Assembly: GCF_010468615.1 (NCBI RefSeq)
Contig: NZ_WUEH01000023.1
Coordinates: 1-64,000 of the forward strand
Source of the DNA: Pseudodesulfovibrio sp. JC047
GTDB lineage: Bacteria > Desulfobacterota > Desulfovibrionia > Desulfovibrionales > Desulfovibrionaceae
Length of the DNA: 64,000 nucleotides
Direction: 5' to 3'
Numbering within the stretch: the stretch's first letter is position 1; the number at the start of each line of letters is the position of its first letter. Made by a program: the position numbers and the translations under genes. The notes beneath the pieces were generated by a model, which worked only from the letters and a program-made list of their open reading frames with translations, was not told the DNA's origin and did no database searches. Below are positions 13,384 to 27,597 of this stretch, piece by piece.

Positions 13384-13659
13384 TTAGTCAGCGGACTTTT
13401 TCCCGTGTTCAACGATGTAGGTCATCCACTCTTCACGATCCACCGCACGATCCGCATTGGTATCGATCTCGTCAAAAAGTCCCAATTCACCATTGGGAAA
13501 AGCCACCAGGAATTCCCCTTTGGTCATGGTCCCATTCACGTCCACGTCCAAGGCATTGAAACACACATCATAATTGGGACTGGCCACGCAGGGTTGGCCT
13601 GCCAAGAGCAACAGAAAAACCACACCGAATACTTTTTTCACAACGCCTTTAAACCGCAC
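13384..13659 (-). CDS. Secreted EF-hand protein
   Basis: The 91-residue protein has a signal peptide (about 1-26) and two EF-hand loops. Loop 1 is D38-V-D-V-N-G-T-M-T-K-G-E49, a full canonical Ca ligand set. Loop 2 is D66-T-N-A-D-R-A-V-D-R-E-E77, with Arg in place of the usual Gly. The mature protein therefore looks like a minimal calcium-binding module in the periplasm. The GTG start uses GAGGGG overlapping the stop of the CsoR/CstR-like gene, so the two are coupled. The link between calcium and the sulfur locus is not explained by any known family. Confidence 0.8.
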   Translation of the reverse strand: MRFKGVVKKVFGVVFLLLLAGQPCVASPNYDVCFNALDVDVNGTMTKGEFLVAFPNGELGLFDEIDTNADRAVDREEWMTYIVEHGKKSAD

Positions 13660-13662
13660 GAG

Positions 13663-13956
13663 CTACCCCTCGATAAATCCGGTCAAGACCTTAATGAGCT
13701 TATCCAGGGCCTCTTTTTCTTCAACTTCATTATCCAAGGCTTCAGCATAACACCTGAGCATATAGCGTTTCAAAATCAACTTGTTGGCCGACTGCAAGGC
13801 GGACCGTACCGCACGGACCTGTACCAGAATATCTTCGCATTCCTTTCCAGCCTCGATCATGCCCTGAATTCCCCGAACCTGACCTTCGATCCGCTTCATG
13901 CGGGACAACACATTCTTCTTGATCTGCTGCTCTTCACTCATTGATGCTGTTTCCAT
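13663..13956 (-). CDS. CsoR-family regulator with CstR-like (persulfide-sensor) residues
   Basis: The 97-residue all-helical protein has the DUF156/CsoR signature LSRMKRIEGQVRGIQGMI. Copper-sensing CsoR uses Cys-His-Cys. Here the positions are Cys40, Tyr65 and Cys69: the copper-ligand His is replaced by Tyr, while the 29-residue Cys-Cys spacing is kept. That pattern is known from CstR, which represses sulfide/persulfide detoxification genes and is released by Cys-Cys polysulfide bridging. The ATG at 13956 follows GAGGAG. Neighbouring rhodanese genes support the sulfur assignment, which remains an inference. Confidence 0.85.
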   Translation of the reverse strand: METASMSEEQQIKKNVLSRMKRIEGQVRGIQGMIEAGKECEDILVQVRAVRSALQSANKLILKRYMLRCYAEALDNEVEEKEALDKLIKVLTGFIEG

Positions 13957-14005
13957 GTCTTTCTCCTCGATTTGGATCAGGTTCCCGTTGCCTGTCACGA
14001 CTGTT

Positions 14006-14054: not shown

Positions 14055-14687
14055 ATGTCCATATCGCCGTCACAAATATATATTCTCAACCTGTTGGAAC
14101 TGTGTGTTACCATCTTTCGCGGCCCGAACTCGACCGGCTGGACCCAACTGGCCCACGCAGGAGTGCCTGAACTCCTCCGCCATGTCCAGCAAAACCCCGA
14201 AAGCCTTAAATTGCCTATTCAGGAGCTGGGAAATACACTGATATCCCCAAAAAAAGCCGACACCGCCGAACTTGAAACCGAGTACGTCCGGTTATTCATC
14301 ACCAGTCCGAACGGCGTACCCGCTCCGCTCTATGCGTCCTGCCACCTCGATACCACGCCGCGCACCATGGGGCAAAGCGCTGTGGATATGCAGGCTCGAC
14401 TGCACCAGGCCGGACTTGAAATCGCTATGGCATCCAATGAACCGGCAGACCACCTCACCATCGAACTTGAATACCTCTATACCCTGCTGGCACAGGGATG
14501 GTCCGCTTCTCCGCAAGACATCCGGGACAGCAAGGATTTTGCCAGGGCCACCATGCTCCCGTGGGTCCGCACATTCCGCACGGCCCTGCTTTCGGCACAC
14601 CCGCATCCGGTCTTCGAACACGCGGGCAACCTGCTGGTGGCCGTGCTCGAAATCGTGGCCGACGGTCACTGTCGCGCATCATCCTGA
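14055..14687 (+). CDS. TorD-like molybdoenzyme chaperone
   Basis: The 210-residue protein is predicted all-helical. ELETEYVRLFITSPNGVPAPLYAS matches the TorD/DmsD family core (E-x-x-R-L-F, then P-x-P-x-Y-x-S), and HLTIELEYLYTLL matches the second conserved helix. Such chaperones bind the Tat signal peptide of a molybdopterin enzyme and keep it from export until cofactor insertion. The client is very likely the Tat-dependent molybdoenzyme at 18380. The ATG is preceded by AAGGA. Its last 22 bases overlap the convergent selenoprotein gene. Confidence 0.82.
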   Translation: MSISPSQIYILNLLELCVTIFRGPNSTGWTQLAHAGVPELLRHVQQNPESLKLPIQELGNTLISPKKADTAELETEYVRLFITSPNGVPAPLYASCHLDTTPRTMGQSAVDMQARLHQAGLEIAMASNEPADHLTIELEYLYTLLAQGWSASPQDIRDSKDFARATMLPWVRTFRTALLSAHPHPVFEHAGNLLVAVLEIVADGHCRASS

Positions 14688-15676
14688 CGCACGGCCGACC
14701 TGAGCACATCCAGGAAATCGGCATCCGGTTCAAAATATCCACGCCGAATCAGCTCAATGGTCCACGAGCCATCCCCTTCCGCCCGAACCAGATAGGCCAA
14801 TGGCAATTCGGCCTGTCCCAGACAGTCGAAAATCTGCCCGCTCTTATCGGAAAACAACGGATAGGCCACACCGTGCTTCTTCTTGAAGCGCACCACGGCC
14901 TGATTGGAATCATACACCCCAAGCCCGATGATCTTGAGCTGCCCGGCCAGCACGGGATCGCTTTCCACATCCTTGAAAAACGCCGACAGAAGACGGGTTT
15001 CCTTCACACAATCGTTACACAGGGTATTGTACAATTGAATCAACACGAACCGGGCGGACAATTCGGATAATTGCAGCCAACGGGTTCCTTTGGGCAATCC
15101 CAGATAGTCCCGATCAGCGTCGCCGTTCAGCACCGCCACCCGGCAGGTCGGGAAGGCATCACCCACGGCCAGAATGTGCGGTTCGTCCTCCACTCCCTCC
15201 ACCTGCCGAGGGTACGCGGCTTTCCAGGCATGAAAACCCGCCGCGTACCGATACACGTTGGTATATCCGAGACGCGCTGCCCAGCGCGCCGCAATGCCAC
15301 TGCGCAGTCACCTGAAGCTGCGGCAATACACCACCACCAGCCGGTCCCGGATCGGACCGACCACGGCCTCGAATTCCATTCGGCGGGCCTGAGACAGCTC
15401 AAGACGATCGCCGAGATCAAAAGCCATGTTCACCGCCCCCGGAATGTGTCCAGCGGCGAATTCATAATCGGCCCGGGCATCGATGACCAGCGGGTTTGCC
15501 CCGGATTCCAGCAGGGCCTTCAGTTCCTCGGTGGCGAGAAGCGCGTATCCTTCCTGTTCGGCTTCGGCCTGTGCATCGGCCCACCAGACCGCATTGTCAT
15601 CCGCATGAACCGGAACACTCCACACCACGCACGCGGCGAGGAGCATGAAGAAGATGGTTGATGGCTGTATCCACAT
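14666..15676 (-). CDS. Periplasmic rhodanese-thioredoxin-like fusion, candidate selenoprotein (in-frame UGA)
   Basis: Two same-frame open segments (15676-15308 and onward to 14666) are separated by one TGA at 15308-15310. Read through, they give 336 residues: signal peptide (1-25), rhodanese domain (about 45-155), and a redoxin-like domain with LYNTLCNDC (Cys220, Cys223). The UGA is residue 123 in C118-R-S-F-R-U123. The adjacent triple-rhodanese protein has C-G-G-F-H-C and C-G-G-H-A-C at the equivalent loop, so UGA replaces a conserved Cys. Homology continues without gap past the UGA (LGYTNVYRYAAGF against LGYTNVHVYAAGF). A hairpin at 15273-15288 suits a bacterial SECIS. A TGA sequencing error or nonsense mutation is possible but less likely. 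It should act on sulfane sulfur or disulfides in the periplasm. Confidence 0.82.
15273..15288 (-). promoter_or_regulatory. SECIS-like hairpin downstream of rhodanese UGA
   Basis: On the coding strand a perfect 6-bp stem CGCGCT/AGCGCG closes the loop GGGC. The loop starts 26 bases after the UGA. Bacterial SECIS elements lie directly downstream of the Sec codon and usually have G in the first loop positions, as seen here. The selD hairpin has nearly the same position and loop. Confidence 0.6.
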
Positions 15677-15738: not shown

Positions 15739-16836
15739 TTATTTGTTCGGGTGGACTTCGTAGGTATTCTCCGCACCGAACTCGTTGGTGGCTTCCAGAT
15801 AAAACACATTTTTCGCATCGGGAATCATATCCATATACAGATAATACGCCTCGCCAGCTCGGGCACCGGTTGCGCAGGAAAAGACGATCGGCTTGTCCGT
15901 GGGGATATCCGACGCCTTCTTTTCAACCATATCGACCGGCATGTTGATGGCGGTCGGGAAATGCCCGGCAGCGAATTCCTCGGGGTCCCGGACATCGATC
16001 AGCAGAATGGAATCCGGATTGTCTTTAATCGTGGCGAGGAACCACTCGGTATCCACTGCACCTTCAGCCGCACCGGCCTTGACCGCAGTGTCTGCCCCGC
16101 CAAACATCTCCTTCCAGCCGGGATACCCGGCTTCGGCGACCATGACCTTCGTGTACCCGAGGTACCGGGCCTTGATGGCGGACTTGTGGGACAGGGCACA
16201 GGCGTGTCCGCCACAATAATAGATCAGCGGGACATCCCCTTTGCCGATCGGCAACATGCTTCGCTTGTCGGCAAATTCCCTTTCCGGGATGCCAATGGCG
16301 GACGGAATCGCACCGGCCAGGAACTTCTGATATGGACGGGCATCGACCAGCATGTACTTTTCACCCTTGGTCATCCGGGCATGAAGATTTTCCAGCCCGA
16401 TGGAATAATACAGGGCGCGCTTCTTGTAGTCCGGGAAACCGGCGGCGTAGACATGGACATTGGTATAGCCAAGTTTCTCTGCCTTCCAGGCGGCCTTATG
16501 AGAAAGCCCGCAGTGGAATCCGCCACAGTAGAAAATCACCATGTCATTCTTGTCGGCGGGCAACCTGTCCACCAACTTGTCGAATTGACTGGTGGGGATG
16601 GAGACCGCCGTCGGGATGTATCCATCCACATATTTGGGTTTGTAGGGCCGGGAATCCACGATCATGACACCTTTCGGTTTGGGCATGACGGCGTATTTGG
16701 CCACAACGTCATATTCCACAATGGAATGAAATTCCTTAAATACGGGCTTTTTGGTCTCCTCAGCCAGACCGACCCCGGCCATGGCCACAACGGCACAGGC
16801 CAGTATTACGGCAATACTCACTAATTTCCTGAACAT
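15739..16836 (-). CDS. Periplasmic triple-rhodanese-domain protein
   Basis: The 365-residue protein has a signal peptide (1-25) and three rhodanese modules. Modules 1 and 2 carry unusual two-Cys active loops, C104-GGFH-C109 and C208-GGHA-C213. Module 3 has the canonical CATGAR loop with Cys321. It may pass sulfane sulfur between domains, with the first two loops able to form a disulfide or trisulfide; that is inferred. It lies between the cytochrome b gene and the seleno-rhodanese gene. The ATG at 16836 follows AAGGGAG; the open frame to 17085 overlaps the cytochrome b gene and is not used. Confidence 0.88.
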   Translation of the reverse strand: MFRKLVSIAVILACAVVAMAGVGLAEETKKPVFKEFHSIVEYDVVAKYAVMPKPKGVMIVDSRPYKPKYVDGYIPTAVSIPTSQFDKLVDRLPADKNDMVIFYCGGFHCGLSHKAAWKAEKLGYTNVHVYAAGFPDYKKRALYYSIGLENLHARMTKGEKYMLVDARPYQKFLAGAIPSAIGIPEREFADKRSMLPIGKGDVPLIYYCGGHACALSHKSAIKARYLGYTKVMVAEAGYPGWKEMFGGADTAVKAGAAEGAVDTEWFLATIKDNPDSILLIDVRDPEEFAAGHFPTAINMPVDMVEKKASDIPTDKPIVFSCATGARAGEAYYLYMDMIPDAKNVFYLEATNEFGAENTYEVHPNK

Positions 16837-16885: not shown

Positions 16886-17635
16886 TCATTCTCCGGACAC
16901 ATTTCTTTCCGAAATTTCCTGACGGTCGGTCCTGATCTTTTCCCACCACAGACGGTGATGGTGCTTGGCGTATGTTCCGGGCACCTCGCCGGTGAACATG
17001 GATTTGAATCCGGGCCGCTCCTCCGGCGAAATGGCCGCCATGTACACATGGACCAACAATCCGGCAAAAACCACGCCCACGGCAATGAAATGCAAGGTGA
17101 TAGCCCACCCGACCAGCCCTGTGGCTGCGGCCCCGAACGTCCGATCGGACAGGAAGAGGATCACGCCGGTCACGGCAATGAGCACACCGCCCACCACACT
17201 GGCCTGGGCAAAGGCCTTCTGGCCCATGTTGTAATATCCCTGATCCGGCAGTTCCGGGCTGAGGCCAATCCATGCCAACGGCTTGGGACCAACGGTCATG
17301 AGCACCATTTTCTTGACTATCCACGCCATGTCACGGACCGGACTGACCGCAAAGACCTCGGCCAGAAAAAACCGTGCTCCAGCAAAATTGACCACGAGAT
17401 AGACCACAAATCCGATCAGCCACAACAGGCCCAGCCCTTCATGGATGGCCAGCAGATTTGCCCCGCCCCCGACCATGGCCCGCAGGGCCTCCGGGTACCC
17501 GGACCCGAAAGGATCGATGGCCGGGTGCTGAATCAGTCCCACGCCGGTCAGCAGCAGAAGCAGCCAACACACCGCGTTGAACCAGTGGATGAATATATCG
17601 GATCGGTCATGCCGCTTGTAGGTACGATCAGGCAT
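16886..17635 (-). CDS. Cytochrome b subunit (formate dehydrogenase gamma/cytochrome b561-like)
   Basis: The 249-residue membrane protein has about four transmembrane helices. Candidate haem-b His ligands are His17 in DIFIHWFNAVCW, a His in LAIHEGLGLLW, and two in LHFIAVGVVFAGLLVHVYMAA, the FdnI/FdoI-type arrangement. It should anchor the periplasmic molybdoenzyme and exchange electrons with menaquinone. Its ATG at 17635, after AAGGAGG, overlaps the end of the ferredoxin-subunit gene by 8 bases, showing tight coupling. PhsC and PsrC proteins differ in fold, so the pairing with a PhsA-like enzyme is a mixed type. Confidence 0.86.
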   Translation of the reverse strand: MPDRTYKRHDRSDIFIHWFNAVCWLLLLLTGVGLIQHPAIDPFGSGYPEALRAMVGGGANLLAIHEGLGLLWLIGFVVYLVVNFAGARFFLAEVFAVSPVRDMAWIVKKMVLMTVGPKPLAWIGLSPELPDQGYYNMGQKAFAQASVVGGVLIAVTGVILFLSDRTFGAAATGLVGWAITLHFIAVGVVFAGLLVHVYMAAISPEERPGFKSMFTGEVPGTYAKHHHRLWWEKIRTDRQEISERNVSGE

Positions 17636-18383
17636 CGGAGTCCTCCTTGTGTCCCGAAGTGGACGCATCGTCGGTCCCGGCAAACAACTGACGGCCCAGC
17701 ATGGCAAGCACCCCCAGACCGGACAGGGCAACAATCCCCTTGACCAGCGGCGCAGCCTGCTTCATGGCGACCATGGACGCGGGAATAACGGCTTCCCGTC
17801 CCCAGTCAGCCGGACCGGGGTTGCCGAGATAGAACATATTCGGTTTGGTATCTGTGGTGGCCGCCACGCGGGTCAGTCGATCCGCATTCTTGCGATACAG
17901 CCGACCGGCTTCGCTTTCGGGGTCGTTGATGTCACCAAAAACCCGAGCCTTGGTGGGACAGGTATCCACACACGCCGGAGGCAACCCTGCGGCCCTGCGC
18001 TCGGGGCAATAGTTGCACTTGTCCGCCTTGCGCTTGACCGCATTGCGAAACCGCGCGTCATACGGACAGGCCGGAACACAGTTGCCACACCCGATGCACA
18101 ACCCTTCGTCGATAACCACTTCGCCAGTGGCCATATCCTTGTATGTGGCTCCCGTGGGACACGCCTCCACACAGGTGGGGACATCACAGTGCATACACGC
18201 TCCGGGTTGAAACCGGGCGGTCTGACTCTTGGCACCAGGCACAGGTGTCTCACTGAGCGGTTTGATCCAGTTGCGCCACTGCCCTTCCGGGACCTCGTTG
18301 GCGACCTTGCAGGCAACCACGCACGCCTTGCAATCGATGCACTGAGCCGCGTCAATAACCATTGCGAGCTGTTGCGCCATCAC
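17628..18383 (-). CDS. Four-cluster ferredoxin-type electron transfer subunit
   Basis: The 251-residue protein has four Cys groups: CIDCKACVVAC, CMHCDVPTCVEAC, CIGCGNCVPAC, and CNYC with a later CVDTC. This is the 16-Cys pattern of PsrB/NrfC/DmsB subunits with four [4Fe-4S] clusters. A C-terminal hydrophobic helix (VALSGLGVLAMLG) may anchor it to the membrane. It lacks its own signal peptide, so export would piggyback on the Tat-targeted catalytic subunit. Its start overlaps the catalytic-subunit stop as ATGA. It relays electrons between the molybdenum centre and cytochrome b. Confidence 0.93.
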   Translation of the reverse strand: MMAQQLAMVIDAAQCIDCKACVVACKVANEVPEGQWRNWIKPLSETPVPGAKSQTARFQPGACMHCDVPTCVEACPTGATYKDMATGEVVIDEGLCIGCGNCVPACPYDARFRNAVKRKADKCNYCPERRAAGLPPACVDTCPTKARVFGDINDPESEAGRLYRKNADRLTRVAATTDTKPNMFYLGNPGPADWGREAVIPASMVAMKQAAPLVKGIVALSGLGVLAMLGRQLFAGTDDASTSGHKEDSDA

Positions 18384-20575
18384 GCCACCTTCCTTGTTAC
18401 AGAGACAAACGTCGTGTGCATCGAAGCATTACCGGTAATTGCATCATAGTCGTCCTCCAACAGCGCATTGATGGACGCGCCATTGCCATGGGACAGGGTC
18501 TGCATAGTGGACAGGGTATTGTATCCTGAAAGCATGTACACCGTATCCTTCCTGATCCTGTCAGTGACTTCCGCCACCAATTCCTGTCTGCCCACGGCAC
18601 TGGAAACTTCGACCAGATCGCCGTTCGCGATACCGAGTTTCCGGGCGGCCTCGGTATTGAGCCACAGGGTATTGGTGGGATTCAGTTCGTTGAGCACCCT
18701 GTTGTTGATCGTGGATGTCTGCGTCACCGACGCATCCCGCCCCAGCACCAGACGAAACCGGTTCTCCGGGACAATGGTCGGTGGGGTATACACCGGCATG
18801 GGATCAAGCCCCATCTGGGCATACCGCTGGTTGTACAGCTCCACTTTCTTGGACAGGGTCTTGTAGATACGGCCATCATAGATGCCATAGACCTTGGACG
18901 GGTTGTAATAGACCCCGTCCCGGTCCATGACCTCTAGGGCCTCGGGAATCTCGCGGGTCTGTTTGACGCGAAATTCATCGATGGTGAAATCAAAATATTC
19001 GCCCAGGTCCAGCCGCCCGGCAATGCCCTTCATAATGTCAAACAACGGTCGGGATTCGTAGAGCGGCTCGATCACGGGATCACGTTTGACCACACAGGCG
19101 CAGGCAACGGACCCCTGCAATCCGGCGCACGGGTCGGTACGTTCCAGATAACTCTGTGACGGCAGGACCAGATCCGCATACCAGGCCGTATCGGACATGG
19201 CGATATCCACCACGGTCACGAAATCCATGGACTGCATCATCTCGATGGTCTTCTGCCGATTCGGAGCCGTGCCCATGGGGTTGGTCTTGTACACGAACCA
19301 CCCTTTGACGGGATACGGATCCTCGGCCAACACCGCGTCCCGGGTCACGAGAAACGACCCTTCATGCTCGAACATCATGGGCACCGTGTGGGCGTCGATC
19401 CGGTCTTCCTGATTCTCGTCATACCACGGCGCGTCATAGGGCACGCCCTTGAGCCCCACCTGTCTGGCCGCCAATAGCCCACCGGGACGGTCCCAGTTGC
19501 CAAGCAATCCGTTGACGATGGCGAAACTGCGACGAATCTGGGTAGAATCCTCATAGTCCGAAGTCCGCCGTCCGGGATACACCATGGCCGCCGGAGCCGC
19601 AGCAGCCAGTTCCCGGGCCATGCGCGTGATGTCTTCCGCCGGAATCCCGCACTGCTCCGCCGCAAAACCGGGCGTGTACTGTTTGACGTGTTCAGCGAGC
19701 TGCTCAAGCCCATAGGTCTTTTCCGCGACCCATGTGGCATCATAGAGCTGTTCGCCGATGATGACGTGAGCCAGTGCGAGCATGAAGGCCATGTCCGTTC
19801 CCGGCCTGATGGGATACCACGCATCCGACAGGGCCGCGGTCTTGGTATACCGGGGATCGAGCGTCACCAGCGTACACCCTTTCTCGCGAATGGCTGTCAT
19901 CAGATCAATGGAATCCGGAGTGACCAATGCCTCGAATCGATTGGCACCGGCCATGATGATGTATTTGGAATTCAAGACGTCCGCAAAAGGGACTTCTCCG
20001 TAAGTGTCGAGAAATGCCCGATTGCCGGACACCAGACACAAGGATTCGTGCGACGTGACATTGAAGGAACCGTAAACCTCGGCAAACCGGCTGACAAACT
20101 GGGAATGCAGATCGGTCCCGGCAGAGAACAGATGGCCGCAGGGGGTATATTTGGCGCGGACCGCCTCCATCTTTTGGGCGGCCATGTCCAGGGCTTCATC
20201 CCATGGAATACGCTGCCATTTACCTTCGCCCCGCTCCCCCACGCGCAACAGTGGGTGCTTCAACCGATCCGGATCATAGACCTGATCGATGCCCGCGTTG
20301 CCGCGTGCGCACAACATGCCGCGAGATTTGAGGAATTGCGGATTGGGATCGAGTTTTCGAATGACCCCGTCTTCCACTCGGGCAATCACGCCGCATTTAT
20401 TGAAACACATATCACAGGCCGAGAATCGGGCATCCCAGGCCGGAACTGCGCTCGATGCTGCCTGCGCTTTTTTCAGGCCTCCCAACACAGCCGGACCGCC
20501 AACCGCCCCGGCCGCGACCAGACCAGACGCCTTGAAAAAATCGCGACGAGACATTTTCTGTTCAGAATTCGACAC
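18380..20575 (-). CDS. Molybdopterin oxidoreductase, thiosulfate/polysulfide-reductase-like (PhsA/PsrA-type)
   Basis: The 731-residue catalytic subunit has a Tat signal (SRRDFFK, residues 9-15). Cys54, Cys57, Cys61 and Cys89 bind the N-terminal [4Fe-4S] cluster. Cys180 in SHESLCLVSG is at the molybdenum-ligand position used by PsrA/PhsA. The molybdopterin-binding C-terminal domain includes LNTEAARKLGIANGDLVEV. I chose the GTG at 20575 because GGAGG lies 6 bases upstream. The substrate (thiosulfate, polysulfide or another sulfur compound) cannot be fixed from sequence; the flanking rhodaneses favour sulfane sulfur. Direction could be oxidative or reductive. Confidence 0.9.
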   Translation of the reverse strand: MSNSEQKMSRRDFFKASGLVAAGAVGGPAVLGGLKKAQAASSAVPAWDARFSACDMCFNKCGVIARVEDGVIRKLDPNPQFLKSRGMLCARGNAGIDQVYDPDRLKHPLLRVGERGEGKWQRIPWDEALDMAAQKMEAVRAKYTPCGHLFSAGTDLHSQFVSRFAEVYGSFNVTSHESLCLVSGNRAFLDTYGEVPFADVLNSKYIIMAGANRFEALVTPDSIDLMTAIREKGCTLVTLDPRYTKTAALSDAWYPIRPGTDMAFMLALAHVIIGEQLYDATWVAEKTYGLEQLAEHVKQYTPGFAAEQCGIPAEDITRMARELAAAAPAAMVYPGRRTSDYEDSTQIRRSFAIVNGLLGNWDRPGGLLAARQVGLKGVPYDAPWYDENQEDRIDAHTVPMMFEHEGSFLVTRDAVLAEDPYPVKGWFVYKTNPMGTAPNRQKTIEMMQSMDFVTVVDIAMSDTAWYADLVLPSQSYLERTDPCAGLQGSVACACVVKRDPVIEPLYESRPLFDIMKGIAGRLDLGEYFDFTIDEFRVKQTREIPEALEVMDRDGVYYNPSKVYGIYDGRIYKTLSKKVELYNQRYAQMGLDPMPVYTPPTIVPENRFRLVLGRDASVTQTSTINNRVLNELNPTNTLWLNTEAARKLGIANGDLVEVSSAVGRQELVAEVTDRIRKDTVYMLSGYNTLSTMQTLSHGNGASINALLEDDYDAITGNASMHTTFVSVTRKVA

Positions 20576-20620
20576 GTCAAACCTCCGGGTATCCACCTAT
20601 GGACCGTGGGTATCTCAGAT

Positions 20621-20727: not shown

Positions 20728-21051
20728 TTAGCTGCACTTGGCCGGAGACGGCGAGTCTTTTGCATAATCGTGCAGATAGGTGAAGATATCGTTCACATCC
20801 TTGTCTGAAACTCCCCACTCTCCGGCACACGGAATCGAAGTCTCATTCTTGAATGTATCCGTCCACTCGGCCTGAGTCCGATCAGCCGGACTCAAGTCAG
20901 GAGCCTGGGTGCCATTGTGACAGGTTCGACAGTTTTTGCGGTACAGGAATTTCCCCTTGCGGGCATTTCCATCCCCCATGGCAAAGGCCATGGACACGAC
21001 AAAGACAGTCATCAGAACAGACGCCACAGTCACAGTAAAAGTACGATGCAT
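20728..21051 (-). CDS. Periplasmic monohaem cytochrome c
   Basis: The 107-residue protein has a signal peptide ending near AFA (about residue 24) and one haem motif CRTCH (about 41-45). The C-terminal IFTYLHDYAKD helix is like small class I cytochromes c. Two extra Cys (near IPCAGEWG and the penultimate residue CS) could form a disulfide. It is the first gene of the molybdoenzyme operon and probably carries electrons to or from the complex. ATG at 21051 follows GGAGG with ideal spacing. Confidence 0.9.
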   Translation of the reverse strand: MHRTFTVTVASVLMTVFVVSMAFAMGDGNARKGKFLYRKNCRTCHNGTQAPDLSPADRTQAEWTDTFKNETSIPCAGEWGVSDKDVNDIFTYLHDYAKDSPSPAKCS

Positions 21052-21165
21052 AATTCCTCCAGAAAACATGTTGGTTCAACACGACAGGGATGCCATTTTT
21101 CCGCCGTATCATACGGTCGCATTCATGAACAGTATTCCCTGCTTTTTAGGTATACTTTCTATCGT

Positions 21166-26551: not shown

Positions 26552-27597
26552 AGAATCGACAGAGAAGCGGCACCGGGTTCATGCTCGAAGGCCTTGCCCA
26601 CATGGGCGGCAACATCTCCGGCATGAATGAGCATGTCCATGGCCCGGGTCAATTGATCCGGTTTGACCGCCAACAACAACCCACCCGAGGTCTGGGCATC
26701 GAACATGAGATCGAAATGAATGGGGTCCAAGCCGTCAGCGACATCCACCTGTGGCAGATAATAATTACGGTTGCAAATCGACCCGGCAGGCAACATTCCC
26801 ATGGAGGCCATTTCCAACGCCCCCGGCAATAAGGGAACATTCTTCATGCGTAGTTCCAGACGGACCCCGCTGGCCTTGGCCAGCTCCAACATATGTCCAC
26901 CCAGTCCGAATCCGGTAATATCCGTCGCACCTCGAACGCCCAATTCACGAATGACCTCGCCACCGGCCTTGTTCAGTCGGCCACAGGTCTCATACAACAC
27001 GGATTCCATCGGTTCATAGCCGGGCATTTCGCCCTTGACCGCCGTGGTCAGCACGCCGGTTCCGATAGGCTTGGTCAAAATCAGTTCATCCCCCGGTTCC
27101 ACGCCGCGATTGGACGCGAACCGCTCCGGGTCAACCACACCGGAAACAGCCAGACCGAACTTGATTTCGTCATCTTCCACACTATGCCCGCCAGCGGATA
27201 CGGCTCCAGCCTCATCCACCGCACTCTGTCCACCCTTGAGAATCGCGGTCAGCACCTCAAGTGGCAGTTTCTTTGGCGGAAAACAGACGATGTTCATGGC
27301 TGTCCACGGCTCGCCACCCATGGCGTACACATCGGACAGGGCATTGACCGCAGCGATACGGCCGAACTGATAGGGATCATTAACCACAGGGGTAAAGAAA
27401 TCCACGGTCTGCACCAGAGCCTTGCCAGCGGGAAACGCCACAATGGCAGCGTCCTCATTATCGCCAGGGCCTCCGGCAAGCGTGCGGGTATCGGGTCGAA
27501 CCTCAAGTCCGGAAAGTGCTATCTCCAGGTCCCCTGGAGCGATCTTGGCCGCTCAACCAGCGGCTTTGACCATGCTGACCAATTTGAATTTCTGCAT
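26548..27597 (-). CDS. selD: Selenide, water dikinase (selenophosphate synthetase) with Sec15
   Basis: SelD makes selenophosphate from selenide and ATP for Sec-tRNA synthesis. A naive frame starts only at 27441, but coding continues upstream to ATG 27597 through a single TGA at 27553-27555. This gives 349 residues with KAAGUAAKIAPGDLE, where U15 is at the known catalytic Cys/Sec site and Lys18 is the conserved partner. The downstream AIR-synthase-like domains are intact (VDFFTPVVNDP, GGHSVEDDEIKFGLAVSG, TDITGFGLGGH). Many Desulfovibrio SelD proteins are selenoproteins. It ends 4 bases into the convergent kinase gene, and lies 9 bases downstream of rfaE2. Confidence 0.95.
27523..27539 (-). promoter_or_regulatory. 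SECIS-like hairpin downstream of selD UGA
   Basis: On the coding strand a perfect 7-bp stem CTCCAGG/CCTGGAG closes the loop GGA, or a 6-bp stem closes GGGAC. The loop starts about 21 bases after the UGA, within the range of bacterial SECIS elements. Confidence 0.7.

Follow-up and report, generated by a model that had tools for sequence, protein, structure and literature searches.

We identified, on the minus strand of a 64-kb stretch of DNA from a sulfate-reducing bacterium (hereafter the window), a rhodanese gene with a single in-frame UGA, which is very probably decoded as selenocysteine (Sec) by SelB and tRNA-Sec with the aid of a hairpin just downstream. Judging from its motif, we infer that the product is a periplasmic rhodanese with a Cys118-Sec123 pair in the active-site loop, and by its predicted sequence this CxxxxU rhodanese/redoxin is a new variant beside the known UxxxxU rhodanese/DsbD protein TsoB. 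We propose, with a probability of roughly 0.45, that the sulfur-respiration operon of one order repeatedly places Sec at position +5 of the rhodanese loop, in a terminal rhodanese, a multi-rhodanese and TsoB DsbD fusions, where the Cys-Sec pair would make a persulfide-reducing enzyme, and that these proteins constitute a selenium-based sulfane-sulfur reductase module. The gene and its elements are the following.

14666-15676, minus strand: selenoprotein gene, 336 amino acids on read-through, encoding a signal peptide, a rhodanese domain with a CRSFRU loop and a TlpA/ResA-like redoxin; the range includes the ordinary stop (14666-14668)
15602-15676, minus strand: signal peptide, approximately residues 1-25, assigned by eye
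15323-15325, minus strand: Cys118, the presumed catalytic (sulfane-sulfur-binding) cysteine, its role taken from the rhodanese family
15308-15310, minus strand: in-frame TGA, codon 123, with the Sec reading
15271-15290, minus strand: SECIS-like hairpin of 8 bp, GGCGCGCU-GGGC-AGCGCGUC, with the GGGC loop at 15279-15282
15008-15019, minus strand: CNDC redox motif (residues 220-223) in the redoxin domain

The frame starts at an ATG at 15676 and, apart from the one TGA, is open to 14669. The TGA lies in the context Y-C118-R-S-F-R-U123-L-R-S and interrupts the rhodanese domain shortly past Cys118; a single PF00581 domain spans it (residues 49-154, 68.2 bits against the Pfam gathering score of 22.2). 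Further downstream, the frame encodes a PF00578 AhpC/TSA redoxin (residues 199-289, 29.3 bits, gathering score 26), and the best match of this half among solved structures is ResA (3c73, E 1.1e-12). Cys118, at the head of the loop as expected of the catalytic residue, is invariant in all 36 aligned long forms (of 44 such forms found). From base composition alone, the chance of 213 further open codons after the TGA is about 3e-4, and a chance open frame is untenable given the comparative evidence. The original prediction was therefore correct in placing a TGA in CRSFR-U, in reading through it into a CxxC redoxin and in pointing to CGGFHC and CGGHAC motifs in the adjacent multi-rhodanese, both of which are present there; of the interval that it assigned to the gene, 15273-15676, the start stands, and the end had been put at the hairpin though the gene runs to 14669.

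In searches of 199 genomes of the family and then of 348 genomes of the class, most of the best matches retain one in-frame TGA. The codon aligned with codon 123 was compared in 63 loci, namely the window and 62 matches with E values up to about 6e-28, one per genome; among the weaker matches, it was read only in L033-L035, all of which have Cys. Locus L036, the one locus detected in a contig scan with the single protein, is identical to L105 of genome G342 in 13,354/13,354 bases and was removed from the counts as a duplicate. The original prediction anticipated Cys or UGA at this position and would have fallen with homologues that have neither: the codon is TGA in 56 of the 63 loci and Cys in 7 (TGC in 6, TGT in 1), and no homologue (0/63) has any other. 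On the best tree, for which the codon-123 residue was masked, Sec and Cys exchange five times, three of these changes being forced by well-supported branches. Downstream of the UGA, dN/dS is between 0.03 and 0.22 in 17 of 18 pairs, the remaining pair being not computable. Several of the TGA-bearing genomes are single contigs.

The redoxin is less constant than the loop. It is absent in 19 of the 63 homologues, and the other 44 have a long tail, with CxxC in 39 and without it in 5. The rhodanese-redoxin fusion, which the original prediction made part of the architecture, is thus present in the window protein and is not an essential part of the family, because the redoxin is absent in 19/63 homologues and CxxC is missing in 5 more. 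In all five of the latter (L111, L113, L116, L120 and L131), the redoxin-like tail contains a CC pair (ELECCTPD), and this replacement of CxxC suggests an altered role of the tail. We also noted matches with two TGA codons in frames of about 600 amino acids, for instance G211:C15, G222:C1 and G228:C1, which may be TsoB proteins encoded alongside the window-type gene in the same genomes.

Bacterial SECIS elements are hairpins close behind the UGA with a G in the apical loop. The hairpin with a G-rich loop that had been predicted 20-35 bases downstream was recovered: its 8-bp stem (GGCGCGCU/AGCGCGUC) closes a GGGC loop that starts 25 nt past the UGA. Among the UGA sequences of the genus (n = 24), 7.1 of the 8 pairs are formed on average, compared to 3.95 in synonymous recodings (500, each with the gene's own codon use), none of which (0/500) reaches the observed value; for the 7 Cys homologues, the corresponding values are 4.0 and 3.66, with 133/500 recodings reaching the observed value, so that there is no excess in the Cys homologues as a set. 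Individually, two of the 7 have equally good hairpins (score of about 2 or more) in other registers, and L106 retains 7 pairs at the hairpin site. In a scan of the genus sequences from -300 to +480 nt, using side-by-side 60-nt intervals, 7-bp stems and loops of 3-8 nt, by which hairpins that cross an interval border are missed, the excess is 0.41 at the hairpin and at best 0.16 elsewhere. The excess is alike (0.37) in 13 further sequences of the family, and in 19 sequences from other families it is weak at the UGA (0.12), with values of up to 0.18-0.21 elsewhere in the gene. When the best hairpin of each sequence is compared with that sequence's own recodings (n = 56), the mean z is only 1.0. 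Covariation in the hairpin is modest, its score being reached by 11/500 shuffles, and the folding energy after the UGA is ordinary (mean z -0.48, compared to -0.15 to -0.65 at control places in the gene). No RNA family of Rfam was detected in the 64-kb window at gathering thresholds. Support for the putative SECIS function of the hairpin comes from related sequences.

The source genome encodes SelA (601 bits), SelB (399 bits) and SelD (339 bits), as well as tRNA-Sec with the anticodon tca. The selD gene is located in the window, about 11 kb from the rhodanese selenoprotein gene, and itself contains a UGA, which makes it a positive control for the use of Sec.

26653-27582, minus strand: SelD, coordinates of the match; codon 10 of this stretch (27553-27555) is a UGA, in UAAKIAPG

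SelB scores above the cut-off in 61 of the 63 genomes that carry the rhodanese gene, including all 7 with Cys versions, and was not found in the other two, G344 (82% complete) and G215 (96% complete, 510 contigs). Furthermore, the source genome has a second UGA rhodanese on contig 6 (L006:1246-1659), with the motif YCAUHN and a score of 154.7 bits against the NF041203 cut-off of 115.

The selenoprotein gene closes a conserved operon that also encodes a multi-rhodanese and a molybdoenzyme resembling thiosulfate and polysulfide reductases; the surroundings are as follows.

20728-21069, minus strand: small c-type cytochrome
18380-20596, minus strand: molybdopterin oxidoreductase, nearest to the thiosulfate reductase PhsA (528.6 bits)
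17628-18383, minus strand: 4Fe-4S ferredoxin-type subunit
16886-17734, minus strand: cytochrome b561/FdnI-like membrane subunit; the open reading frame is given as listed, and the true start is probably nearer 17635
15739-16836, minus strand: exported multi-rhodanese with CGGFHC and CGGHAC, that is, with Cys where some other loci have UGA
14055-14687, plus strand: TorD/NarJ-type chaperone, convergent with the operon
13663-13998, minus strand: CsoR/RcnR-family repressor

The score of the molybdoenzyme lies below the curated cut-off of the PhsA model (NF012032, 694 bits). In 57 of the 63 loci, genes for the multi-rhodanese, cytochrome b, FeS subunit and molybdoenzyme precede the selenoprotein gene on its own strand: 43 of the 44 loci of the family, the exception (L140) ending at a contig border, and 14 of the 19 loci from other families, where four of the five exceptions are on stretches of less than 10 kb and the fifth, L121, has the multi-rhodanese downstream. 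CsoR and TorD accompany 43/44 and 42/44 family loci, respectively; the 19 loci from other families yielded no CsoR, and 8 of them have TorD on the same strand. Within the genus, a strong match to the selenoprotein gene occurs together with the multi-rhodanese in 29 of the 36 genomes searched, and the remaining 7 lack both; outside the genus, 28 genomes have a multi-rhodanese match, of which 15 also contain a strong match to the selenoprotein gene and 13 are without one. Beside the operon, 21/44 family loci have a gene (13384-13659, minus strand, in the window) for a small protein that contains an EF-hand and begins like a signal peptide. In the CsoR-family repressor (13663-13998), the residue at what we take to be the position of a metal-site His looks by eye like Tyr instead, and this repressor may sense sulfur rather than metal.

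The gene for the multi-rhodanese was found in 61 distinct loci, the window included (the underlying set of 62 retains the duplicate L036), and in 8 of these it, too, contains a TGA in frame at position +5 of a rhodanese loop. These are L101, which belongs to the genus of the window organism and has the motif CGGFTU, L112, L121, L123, L124, L125, in which two UGA codons yield UxxxxU, L127 and L129; seven have complete frames, and L112 is cut by the end of its contig. At the 8 UGA sites, 5.88 of 6 hairpin pairs are formed, compared to 3.89 after recoding (0/500 reach the observed value). However, the 29 Cys sites with Trp at +8 (of 106) also have raised pairing, 4.76 against 3.93 pairs (0/500), and the hairpin is therefore not specific evidence for Sec in the multi-rhodanese. 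Together, the terminal rhodanese, the multi-rhodanese and TsoB would place Sec at +5 in three protein contexts.

Rhodaneses hold sulfane sulfur on the loop cysteine. In the reductase cycle that we envisage, Cys118 would be loaded with sulfane sulfur, the donor being thiosulfate, polysulfide or the neighboring multi-rhodanese; Sec123 would then attack the Cys118 persulfide, so that sulfide is set free and a Cys-Sec selenenylsulfide forms, which would be reduced by the fused redoxin or by a separate thiol-disulfide relay, resetting the pair. In TsoB, DsbD would act as the reducing dithiol. We consider the odds for the whole cycle, from the loading of Cys118 through the attack by Sec123 to reduction by the relay, to be about even. 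If it operates, the cycle would drain or buffer the sulfane sulfur that the molybdoenzyme of the operon produces or consumes. Because the redoxin is missing in 19/63 homologues and CxxC in 5/44 long forms, reduction could not always be internal and would be needed in trans. A separate protein of the source genome, L147, aligns with the latter portion of the TsoB profile (144 bits, profile positions 175-563) and is presumably DsbD-like.

The main rival to this cycle is that the selenoprotein is a sulfur carrier similar to Sud, in which Cys118 and Sec123 pass sulfane sulfur to the molybdoenzyme without net reduction on the carrier. Sud is a rhodanese, and the membrane subunit of the Psr type is NrfD-like, whereas that in the window is cytochrome b561-like. 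In the part of the Nautilia genome paper that deals with this system (PMC2628731), a Sud-like polysulfide carrier works with PsrABC, and the Sud/PsrABC system of Wolinella succinogenes is likewise a sulfur carrier working with a sulfur-reduction molybdoenzyme; Sud is not described there as a selenoprotein or as a redoxin fusion. The conservation of the gene beside a PhsA-like operon and the lack of a redoxin in 19/63 homologues are also consistent with a carrier. However, the long tail in 44/63 homologues, with CxxC in 39 of these, and the naming of TsoB as a DsbD fusion argue for redox turnover, and we regard a pure carrier as rather unlikely. Even less probable is that Sec123 protects Cys118 from over-oxidation or makes a peroxide or thiol-redox switch of it: this role would fit a CxxxxU pair beside a reactive Cys and the general statement in a 2026 review that most uncharacterized selenoproteins likely have redox functions, but the identified neighbors are sulfur-respiration genes, with no peroxide-defense gene among them. 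Readings without Sec are highly improbable: an ordinary stop, a pseudogene or a sequencing error, with a separate reading frame downstream (callable from a GTG at 15256), conflicts with a TGA, never TAA or TAG, in 56/63 homologues including single-contig genomes, with the splitting of a domain that the 7 Cys versions have intact and with low dN/dS past the TGA, and decoding as another residue (Trp, or Cys by a near-cognate tRNA), for which nothing beyond the open frame speaks, conflicts with Cys, never Trp, as the sole replacement and with the full Sec machinery and UGA-containing selD in the same window. Pseudogenization, sequencing error and other recoding were accordingly rejected on the conserved TGA, low dN/dS and Cys-only replacement.

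The inventory table of the 2026 review (section 7, parts 1 and 2) includes the rhodanese forms UxxS, UxxG, CxU, UxxG and UxxxxU, and the CxxxxU form is not among them. A 2022 review and the Sargasso and GOS papers mention rhodanese selenoproteins in the relevant parts, for the most part giving no motif, and CxxxxU is thereby neither shown nor excluded; the corresponding parts of the 2006 and 2025 papers do not name a rhodanese selenoprotein. We found no description of a CxxxxU rhodanese/redoxin in the titles and abstract openings searched. No NCBIfam 20.0 model matches the window protein above its cut-off. The best NCBIfam match to the rhodanese domain is TsoB (NF045694; 105.3 bits, residues 8-158, against a curated 805), which has Sec at the same +5 spacing (UxxxxU in the table) and likewise joins a thiol-disulfide module to the rhodanese. 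However, TsoB combines UxxxxU with a DsbD-like domain, neither of which occurs in the window protein, with its CxxxxU loop, one Sec, Cys at the catalytic position and a redoxin. The NF041203 (LYCAU) family, of which the source genome has one member (L006), also consists of rhodaneses with Sec, but there Sec follows Cys by two residues rather than five, and the window protein, which has no CxU, scores 27.2 bits against the cut-off of 115. Forms 1, 2 and 4 of the inventory (UxxS, UxxG) share PF00581 and Sec, but their listed motifs start with Sec, which in the window protein is the second member of CxxxxU. The redoxin half aligns to ResA structures and has CxxC, as in ResA/TlpA, but is fused to a rhodanese and, with 38.9 bits, falls short of the 170 required by the ResA model. 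The novelty claimed by the original prediction is therefore narrowed: Sec at +5 of the rhodanese loop was already present in TsoB, whereas the CxxxxU rhodanese/redoxin form is absent from the 2026 table.

To conclude, the CxxxxU rhodanese, observed with UGA in 56 genomes of one order, adds a predicted selenoprotein form that is lacking from the 2026 inventory table and from NCBIfam 20.0; standard gene calling would be expected to shorten or split such genes. This rhodanese links selenium with dissimilatory sulfur metabolism, and the Sec/Cys pairs that occur naturally at a single position of the loop, across three protein contexts, make the part of selenium in persulfide chemistry directly addressable.
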